Positions 41,984 to 44,821 of a stretch of 64,000 bases of DNA are shown one piece after another. The stretch covers positions 62,001 through 126,000 of the forward strand of contig JAUHZU010000012.1 in NCBI GenBank assembly GCA_030425705.1, read 5' to 3'. The stretch is from Phycisphaerae bacterium. GTDB taxonomy: Bacteria > Planctomycetota > Phycisphaerae > Phycisphaerales > Phycisphaeraceae. Numbering within the stretch: the stretch's first letter is position 1; each line of letters begins with the position of its first letter. The position numbers were made by a program, and so were the translations under genes. The notes beneath the pieces are model-generated. The model was not told the DNA's origin. It did not search any database and saw only the letters and a list, made by a program, of their open reading frames with translations.

Positions 41984-42612
41984 CAGTCCCAGACGTGGCC
42001 ATGGGCCTGCCGCTTGAACTCGAACCAGTCGTTCCAGACATCCTCGCCTGTGCGCAGGTCCAGCATGCGGAACTCGCAGCCGTACAGGTCCGTCCGGTCC
42101 ATCGCGTCGGCGCGGGTGACCGAGCGGAACGTCGCGGTGATCGTGTGCGTGACGTCCCGGCCGCTGCCGAAGTCGGTATCCACGCCCTCCGCGTCGAGGC
42201 GGGGCTTGAGCGCCCGCGTGTGCTCGCCGGGGGTCACGAACTGGATGCGCTTGTCGTCCCACAGCTCGCGCATCGGCTGGGCACCACGTACGTTCGCGAC
42301 GACCCACCACTGCTCGCCGCTGGGCATGACCTCGGACGACAGGTTACGCACCCGGTCGAACGAGACCACCCAGGGCTCGCTCGCCGGGGTGCGCGCCGCG
42401 ATCGATTCCGACGCGCGGAGGGACGCCGCCATCGACGCCGCCATCTGCTCGTAGTCCTCGATCGCGATGCGCGAGGACCGGGGCGGACTCGCACAACCCG
42501 ACAGCACCAGGCCATACCACAGCAGAAAAACACACAACAGCACACGCCTGGACTGGCTGCCTAAGCAGCCAGTCCAGCACAGGCATCCCAAGTTGTAATC
42601 GCGACGAAGCAT
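41983..42612 (-). CDS. lipoprotein of the LpoB-associated operon
   Basis: A 209-residue lipoprotein if it begins at the ATG at 42612, which overlaps the upstream stop as TAATG. The lipobox LVLSGC then lies unusually far in (Cys about 40). A GTG at 42543 gives a conventional signal peptide (VLLCVFLLWYGLVLSGC). A perfect 13-bp hairpin (42548-42577) falls between the two starts and may control translation. The mature part (VRNLSSEVMPSGEQWWVV, ending VWNDWFEFKR) resembles small periplasmic LpoB-like proteins. Function is not known. Confidence 0.72.
   Translation of the reverse strand: MLRRDYNLGCLCWTGCLGSQSRRVLLCVFLLWYGLVLSGCASPPRSSRIAIEDYEQMAASMAASLRASESIAARTPASEPWVVSFDRVRNLSSEVMPSGEQWWVVANVRGAQPMRELWDDKRIQFVTPGEHTRALKPRLDAEGVDTDFGSGRDVTHTITATFRSVTRADAMDRTDLYGCEFRMLDLRTGEDVWNDWFEFKRQAHGHVWD
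42548..42577. promoter_or_regulatory. 13-bp perfect hairpin at the start of the second lipoprotein gene
   Basis: CTGGACTGGCTGC, loop CTAA, then its exact reverse complement. It lies between the TAATG junction at 42612 and the GTG at 42543. No T-run follows on either strand, so it is more likely a translational or stability element than a terminator. Confidence 0.5.
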
Positions 42613-43253
42613 TACTCGCTGATCTGCTTCATCTCGTAGCGGTTGCTGAAGACGATCCGGTTGGTCGCGAACGAGTCGAGGTGCACCTCCATCGCGTACA
42701 GCCCGGTGTCGCCCCGACCGACGCGGTACACGTCCATGTTCAGGACGTAGGTGTTCGCGGCGTTGTAATCCGGCACGAAGTACCGCCCGCCGTTCCACTC
42801 GATCACGCCGTCGTCGCGCACCACCGGGTCGGTGGCGACACGCTCGCGCGCGGCCTGGTTCTCCAGACGGTTCCGCCGCTCGACAAACACCAGCCGGTCC
42901 CGGCCGGCCCGGGAGTTGATCAGCCGGCTGCGGATGCCCGACACGACATACTCGTAGTCGGCGGTCGGCGTCACGCCGGTCTTGTTGATCACGTCACCCA
43001 GCAGGATCACCACCGGCCCGTTCGTGTCCCGGATCTCCGGCAGGTCGGGAAGCTGCGCGAGCAGGTCCTCGGGGACCAGCCGGCTGAACTCGGTCAGCGT
43101 CGTGGGGAGCTGACGCGGGTCGCGGGCCTCACCCGGCGTGGTCTCATCGACGGGGACCCGGCCGACATACTTCTGCGAGCAGCCGGTGAGGACGAACGGG
43201 ACCACCAGCGCGGCGGTCAGCATCAGGCGGGGGAGTCGGTACAGGGCGGTCAT
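42612..43253 (-). CDS. LpoB-like lipoprotein
   Basis: A 213-residue lipoprotein (VVPFVLTGCSQ) and first gene of a three-gene operon. The segment VVILLGDVINKTGVTPTADYEYVVSGIRSRLINS followed by FVERR resembles the LpoB/YcfM fold, the outer-membrane activator of penicillin-binding protein 1B in enterobacteria. Sequence identity to LpoB itself looks low, and many uncharacterised periplasmic proteins share the pattern. AAGGA lies about 8 nt before the ATG. Confidence 0.7.
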   Translation of the reverse strand: MTALYRLPRLMLTAALVVPFVLTGCSQKYVGRVPVDETTPGEARDPRQLPTTLTEFSRLVPEDLLAQLPDLPEIRDTNGPVVILLGDVINKTGVTPTADYEYVVSGIRSRLINSRAGRDRLVFVERRNRLENQAARERVATDPVVRDDGVIEWNGGRYFVPDYNAANTYVLNMDVYRVGRGDTGLYAMEVHLDSFATNRIVFSNRYEMKQISE

Positions 43254-43576
43254 CTCGGTTCCTTGGGTTAGTCGGGGTCACGGGAAGGACGCATGGCCGT
43301 GAAGCACGTTTCGCGGCGTCGGCCACGCCGTCGCCATCATATAGCGTCCCGAGCCGCAGGCGGGTTCATCGTTGATCGCCCGCAGCACGTGTCGCACCCA
43401 GGCAACATCCAGTCTGCACCCTGTTGTGCCCAAACATCATCATGCGTAATCGATCCGTCGCCACATCCCATCAAACTTTACTTAAACTCTTTTCACATAA
43501 ACACTAACGAAAAGCGTTGGTCATGTGATCGGGTGGCACCGTGGTTGCCATCTCCATAGCGTCACGCATGAGCCGC

Positions 43577-43742
43577 CCCCCACGCCGGGCCGAAAGGCCC
43601 GGCCGCCACGAGACCCGGCCAGGGCAGGGGGCAACACGGCTCACCACGACCACCGGCCGACCCGCGCCAGAGGGAGGAGCGCGGGTCGGCCAGGGAGGGA
43701 ACGCCCCTGATCGAGTGCGGCCCGGCAGAGCAATCTGCCGGG
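43577..43742. other. GC-rich multi-hairpin region in an 812-bp spacer
   Basis: The spacer 43254-44065 has no convincing gene. Within it lie three perfect hairpins: GCCGGGCC with loop GAAA (43584-43603), a 13-bp stem GGCCGACCCGCGC with an 11-nt loop (43655-43691) and CCCGGCAGA with loop GCAA (43721-43742). The GNRA tetraloops are on the plus strand, but the clearest promoter (43932-43960) points leftward on the minus strand. Both flanks are AT-rich. I recognise no known RNA family; RNase P, tmRNA and SRP RNA signatures are absent. Confidence 0.45.
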
Positions 43743-43931
43743 TCGTGCTGCGCGCCGACCCACCCGGCACGCGGCGGGGCTGGCCCGGGGCGGGCGGCCA
43801 CCGGTCCCGGGGCCCGCAGGGGGTGAGCCCCGACACCGCGACCGAAAACCCCGCCCCACTTGGCCAACCCGCCCCGTGCCCGGCAGCGACGCCGGCCCCG
43901 GCCCCCATAAGCCGCCTCATCACGACGGCCT

Positions 43932-43960
43932 ATCATAAATAACTCTACATTGCAGATCAA
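43932..43960 (-). promoter_or_regulatory. promoter reading into the hairpin region
   Basis: On the minus strand: TTGATC, 17-bp spacer, TATGAT. It would start transcription near 43925 toward the GC-rich hairpins. Confidence 0.5.
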
Positions 43961-44065
43961 TATATTTCTCTGCAAATCAGAGAAAAAACAGGGCGCTTGA
44001 CGGGCGGCCGATGTTATGTATGCTTATACTTACTTTATTGCCCGCCGTCACCCGCCGAGCCACGC

Positions 44066-44821
44066 ATGCCACCCGAAACCCATCCCGACACCTTGGCAAA
44101 CCACCAGGACGACCCCGCCGATCGTCGCATACGTACCCTGCTCGCGCTGCTGCTGCTCGTGCCCGCGCCGACCCTCGGCATCCTCGCCGCACTCTGGGTG
44201 CCCGGCCTCGCCGAGACAGCCCCGGGGAAAACGATCTTCACCCTCGCGAAGACGCACCTGTTCCTGTTCCCCATCGTGTGGACACTCTGGGTCGACCGGC
44301 GTCGGCTCTCGGTCCCCCGGCCGACGTGGCGCGGGATGGGCTGGGCGGTCGGCACGGGCGTGGCGATCTTCGCGGTGATCGCGGCGGTGTACTACGGCTA
44401 CGCGGAGGGGCAGATCGACAAGGCCGACATGGCCGAGCGGATGCAGGACGCCGGGCTCGACCAGCCGTGGAAGCTGCTCGCCGGCGCGGTCTACTGGTGC
44501 ACTATCAACTCGCTGCTGGAGGAGTACGTCTGGCGGTGGTTTGTCTTCGCCAAGTGCAAGGCCCTGACGCCCGGGCGGACCGTGGTGCCGATCCTCCTGT
44601 CTGCGTTGTTCTTTACGGCCCACCACCTGCTCGCGATGCTCGCGTACCTGCCGAGCCAGCCGCACCTGGCGATCCTCGCGTCGCTGGGCGTCTTCATCGG
44701 CGGCGCGACCTGGTCCTGGCTGTACCTCAAGTCCCGGAACATCTACGCGGCCTACGTCAGCCACGTCTTCGCGGACATCATCATCTTCTACATCGCATAC
44801 CAGATCGCGTTTGGGGGGTGA
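44066..44821 (+). CDS. CPBP family intramembrane metalloprotease
   Basis: A 251-residue membrane protein with about seven helices. The CPBP (Abi/CAAX-like) motifs are present: SLLEEYVWRWFVF (EExxxR), FTAHHLL (FxxxH-like) and the final SHVFADI His. Family members cleave prenylated proteins or peptides inside membranes; bacterial roles range from bacteriocin immunity to unknown. Near-consensus TTGACG and TATGCT lie about 45-70 bp upstream. Overlapping palindromes near 43950-43985 could be regulatory. Confidence 0.85.
   Translation: MPPETHPDTLANHQDDPADRRIRTLLALLLLVPAPTLGILAALWVPGLAETAPGKTIFTLAKTHLFLFPIVWTLWVDRRRLSVPRPTWRGMGWAVGTGVAIFAVIAAVYYGYAEGQIDKADMAERMQDAGLDQPWKLLAGAVYWCTINSLLEEYVWRWFVFAKCKALTPGRTVVPILLSALFFTAHHLLAMLAYLPSQPHLAILASLGVFIGGATWSWLYLKSRNIYAAYVSHVFADIIIFYIAYQIAFGG

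Follow-up and report, generated by a model that had tools for sequence, protein, structure and literature searches.

The stretch of DNA analysed here (64,000 nucleotides, hereafter the window) comes from contig 4 of a genome of 4.1 Mb. At 43254-44065 it contains a non-coding spacer, located between a divergent, directly adjoining lipoprotein-like ORF (42612-43253, minus strand) and a gene for a CPBP/Rce1-like intramembrane protease (44066-44821, plus strand). These neighbours tie the locus together across genomes: homologues of the lipoprotein lie beside the element described below in the other genomes of the same genus (g1) and in g15, and the protease gene is found 3′ of it in g1, g9, and g29. 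No conserved reading frame runs through the spacer, its GC-rich ORFs do not correspond to the secreted protein (A2) that accompanies the element in relatives, and its conservation is compensatory within a stem rather than codon-like, in line with the original prediction of a non-coding RNA instead of a protein. The AT-rich, promoter-like flanks noted in that prediction were recovered at ~43420-43530 and ~43930-44040, the right-hand one containing a sigma-70-like promoter for the protease gene (TTGACG-N16-TATGCT, 43997-44024) within a plus-strand promoter region (43951-44041) conserved in the congener G001. An operator-like imperfect palindrome, TTGCAGATCAATATATTTCTCTGCAA, lies upstream of this promoter (~43943-43982).

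Three perfect hairpins of 8-13 bp had also been predicted, and all three are present on the plus strand, although one is not strictly perfect. The GAAA-closed hairpin (GCCGGGCC-GAAA-GGCCCGGC, 43584-43603) is surrounded by a stem, UGAGCCG..CGGCUCA, which together form a 5′ domain at 43567-43643. It is followed by a perfect 13-bp hairpin with an 11-nt G-rich loop, CAGAGGGAGGA (43655-43691), and by the GCAA-closed hairpin (CGGCCCGGCAGA-GCAA-UCUGCCGGGUCG, 43718-43745), which includes one G-U pair and reaches 16 bp when extended by further G-U pairs. The predicted fold of 43500-43930 was more stable than those of all dinucleotide shuffles on both strands (z of -5.3 for plus and -5.1 for minus), hence stability alone cannot choose between the strands, and the plus strand was assigned because of its A-rich, unpaired character (AT skew up to +0.89) and by reference to relatives. 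Based on the fold and on its position relative to stand-alone relatives, a putative small RNA (sRNA) would extend over 43557-43751 of the plus strand, with a variable, structured 5′ domain preceding a conserved 3′ element. A second GC-rich hairpin (43785-43859, plus strand) lies between this sRNA and the protease promoter, with 79% identity to the congener over 75 nt; it includes GGGGCCCGCAGGGGGUGAGCCCC within an outer stem that differs in G001 by an apparent compensatory change, and its G-rich loop could pair with the CCCCU of the seed defined below. We rejected it as a family-wide motif, since the congener alone shares it and a match in G008, at an unrelated location, appears to be a coincidence.

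Relative to the closest complete congener, conserved stretches were confined to 43702-43749, 43785-43859, and 43951-44041, and when the spacer was compared with 60 relatives one block, 43702-43749, was widely shared. This block holds only the third, GCAA-closed hairpin in its full extent (43714-43749) and the unpaired 15-mer before it, CCCCUGAUCGAGUGC (43704-43718), the last 5 nt of which double as the 5′ side of the hairpin; its 9-nt core, CCCCUGAUC (43704-43712), is unpaired and upstream of the hairpin. The proposal of a structured non-coding RNA therefore held for the third hairpin, which is both conserved and covarying, and not for the GAAA and 13-bp hairpins, which are lineage-specific and not conserved in sequence, the 5′ domain having already diverged in the congener. 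With a functional core reduced to an unpaired seed of 9-15 nt and a terminator-type hairpin, the locus fits a regulatory sRNA better than a large structured RNA.

A search with the 14-mer CCCTGATCGAGTGC returned matches in 30 of 101 genomes and none for the reversed control, a few of the matches being coincidences within genes. Once aligned, the true copies displayed an invariant unpaired stretch and, after it, a hairpin whose arms change in a compensatory manner; a U-run usually follows. A covariance model of the 3′ element detected it in 40 of the 51 genomes of the family, in a single copy each except for a weak second match in one genome. This second copy (L104) is on a foreign-looking contig (C198) binned with the congener G002 that also carries a secreted protein of the type found in family f6, which suggests assembly contamination. 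The named records in which the element occurs belong mostly to Phycisphaeraceae and related Planctomycetota. Among genomes drawn from across the phylum, two f6 genomes gave the only credible matches outside the family; other matches were weak and near chance expectation, and we discarded a phylum-wide distribution accordingly.

Within the alignment of 43 copies, CCCUGAUC is invariant in all and the full 9-mer in 41, while 96.4% of hairpin cells are standard pairs and 8 of the 12 pairs display two-sided changes, which provides the covariation that the original prediction had named as a test. Pairing exceeded that of all shuffles and of slid controls (31-46% paired), and although this alignment was fitted with the model and leans towards structure, an independent MAFFT alignment of 21 copies agrees with it. 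In these 21 copies the 5′ strand of the stem, GAGUGC, is invariant, partly because the copies were selected by a 14-mer containing it, and its 3′ partners vary (G-U, G-C, U-A), as expected if this strand also pairs elsewhere. A second C-rich motif, CCYCUG, is found within the hairpin loop of many copies. Across the family, a conserved unpaired seed thus sits beside a rho-independent terminator hairpin; the U-run that most relatives retain is gone from the window copy (GCGCGCCG; GTGCTGCGCG), as it is from that of G064, and termination at the window copy is uncertain.

The element is found in two genomic contexts. In 24 genomes it lies shortly 3′ of the stop codon of a secreted protein (measured distances of 13-54 nt), in the interval between a coding gene's stop codon and its terminator. 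This protein is fast-evolving, ~180 aa long, and signal peptide-bearing, with no convincing Pfam family and no match in the window genome. Another 16 genomes harbour the element with an intact seed and no recognisable secreted protein. Six of them (g2, g30, g31) have a short ORF, different or diverged, in front of the element, as if the coding part were degenerating or being replaced and the RNA kept; signal peptide-like short ORFs of different sequence were seen directly upstream in g31 (L098, L088, L100) and in g2 and g30 (L082, L096, L087). No upstream ORF of the secreted-protein type was seen in g1, g10, g15, or g12, and in g1, g10, and g15 the element is instead preceded by a variable leader that is mostly GC-rich and structured and in many cases has a G-rich apical loop; GGAGGG-type loops recur in the stand-alone RNAs of g10 and g15. 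Conversely, the secreted protein occurs with no element in three genomes, and one more, G032, has a diverged copy that falls below threshold. In G036, the gene (L249) ends in an ordinary terminator with no seed, indicating that protein and RNA are separable. We found no convincing promoter shared by the stand-alone copies. A sigma-54 site (TGGCAC-N5-TTGC, ~43533-43548) is present in the window species and roughly in G001, is absent from other members of the genus, and is not claimed here as the sRNA promoter.

In agreement with the original prediction, which recognised no RNA class in the spacer, none of 4227 Rfam models matched it at gathering or permissive thresholds. The window genome has no recognisable 6S RNA, so that an unassigned conserved RNA invites this identification, yet the 6S model (RF00013) does not match the spacer, which has no long bulged hairpin of the 6S type. 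The genome carries RNase P RNA and tmRNA elsewhere, and both were dismissed as candidates.

These observations lead us to propose that the spacer probably encodes a new family of trans-acting, base-pairing sRNAs (~43557-43751, plus strand) which would block translation initiation, and which is usually derived from a 3′ UTR and stand-alone here. A base-pairing seed is suggested by the invariant unpaired bases adjoining a covarying terminator, and the working part would be this single-stranded CCCCUGAUC(GAGUGC) next to the terminator-type hairpin. Its complement, GAUCAGGGG, includes an AGGGG that can act as a Shine-Dalgarno site, and pairing of the seed with GAUCAGGGG where it overlaps the Shine-Dalgarno of a target mRNA would prevent ribosome binding and so repress the target. 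For most members of the family, this RNA would form the 3′ UTR and terminator of the small secreted-protein gene, from which it may be released by processing; in the genus of the window, it would be transcribed from a gene standing alone, with a variable structured leader of its own. Folding predictions suggest that the CCCU of the seed pairs with an AGGG just upstream in the window RNA, which could regulate access to the seed, and seed accessibility in full-length folds differs among species.

Candidate targets were searched across the family with the pattern GATCAGGGG-N3-10-ATG, and ~100 listed places, i.e. part of the matches, were inspected; the built-in reversed control contains stop codons and is invalid, which leaves the match numbers with no valid background. 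Most inspected places were false starts, and the genuine-looking ones include orthologues common to members of a genus. GAUCAGGGG overlaps the Shine-Dalgarno of an HTH_17-REC response-regulator gene in the window species (G000) and in G001, of a TPR-SPOR lipoprotein gene in three g9 genomes (G063, G071, G073), and of another lipoprotein gene in both g15 genomes (G018, G065), and at these sites the 9-mer is exact while flanks and spacing to the ATG have diverged. By our own estimate, which assumes one or two genuine sites per genome and ignores shared ancestry, the same gene would rarely be shared by chance (<1 in 1000 per pair). Single matches were also obtained for a sigma-70 family factor in G020 and for several membrane or secreted proteins. 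Sites with GATCAGGGGGAACATG, recurring in five genomes, were set aside, as the short ORFs that they precede are out of frame and appear to be antisense to another conserved coding sequence.

The HTH_17-REC gene, with a predicted duplex energy of -20.7 kcal/mol against a shuffle mean of -7.6, is the best candidate target in the window species, where a membrane protein may be targeted too. As a family-wide target the HTH_17-REC gene was rejected: the exact site is found in G000 and G001 only, two further congeners have GATCGAGGG instead, nothing consistent was seen in other genera, and 46 leaders taken together were near shuffles (mean z -0.7). With sites conserved within three genera and not family-wide, targets appear to turn over between genera.

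Some of these features could also arise if the element were a conserved intrinsic terminator or 3′ UTR stabiliser of the secreted-protein gene, with no targets in trans and the window copy a relic of gene loss. This would fit the 24 genomes in which the same gene directly precedes the element, as well as the U-run, present in most copies and absent from the window one. We nevertheless consider it unlikely, as termination would not require an invariant unpaired CCCUGAUC, the 16 genomes with no recognisable protein retain the element with its seed intact, and G036 has the protein yet terminates it ordinarily. An attenuator or cis-acting leader of the downstream protease gene, suggested by the position of that gene in g1, g9, and g29, is highly improbable, given that in other genera the downstream gene differs or points the opposite way (e.g., a glycyl-tRNA ligase-like ORF at L043 or a glutamine amidotransferase-like ORF at L005), and that the protease gene is served by a conserved promoter of its own, located 3′ of the element.

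An invariant sequence could reflect protein binding as well as pairing, and the conserved sequence might instead be recognised by an RNA-binding regulator or a transcription-termination factor; in a variant of this reading, the G-rich GGA loops of the stand-alone forms, which recur as GGAGGG-type loops in g10 and g15, would titrate CsrA. We regard this as improbable, since the short RNA of G003 has no such G-rich loop and complements of the invariant core are retained at target sites within genera.

sRNAs with C-rich seeds that bind Shine-Dalgarno sequences include the UCCC-motif sRNAs of Firmicutes and the CCUCCUCCC sRNAs of alphaproteobacteria. The element resembles them in that its unpaired seed is C-rich and complements a G-rich Shine-Dalgarno, and in that many copies have a second C-rich motif, CCYCUG, in the hairpin loop, but its seed runs into GAUC beyond the Shine-Dalgarno and no homology was found. 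sRNAs derived from 3′ UTRs are also known, e.g. CpxQ from the cpxP mRNA, including autoregulatory ones (PMC9438474, PMC7398697). As in these, the seed of the element directly precedes an intrinsic terminator and comes right behind the stop codon of a gene related to the envelope, and the 3′ end is highly conserved and the coding part less so; unlike them, the element belongs to a different phylum, has no sequence relation, and also occurs stand-alone with no host ORF, with RNase E processing and Hfq not evidenced for it. Judged on these grounds, it would function as a Shine-Dalgarno-blocking sRNA, derived from a 3′ UTR in relatives, and it belongs to no described family among those tested.

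More tentatively, and at somewhat below even chances, the sRNA may have outlived its host gene. It would have originated as the 3′ UTR of the secreted-protein gene, more conserved than the protein itself; the ORF would then have disappeared in several genera, including that of the window, leaving an independent RNA with a new structured leader and the same seed, turned in each genus onto different, mostly cell-envelope targets.

Literature searches found no characterised sRNA regulator from this planctomycete group, and a 2022 survey listed only 8 annotated sRNA families for the PVC group as a whole (PMC9029176). The element described here provides a family-wide, single-copy sRNA candidate with a named seed and candidate targets, and the presence of the element in the genome of a cultured relative, strain ZRK32, makes this candidate directly testable. 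Its two contexts offer a natural series for how 3′ UTR sRNAs turn into independent genes, or the reverse.
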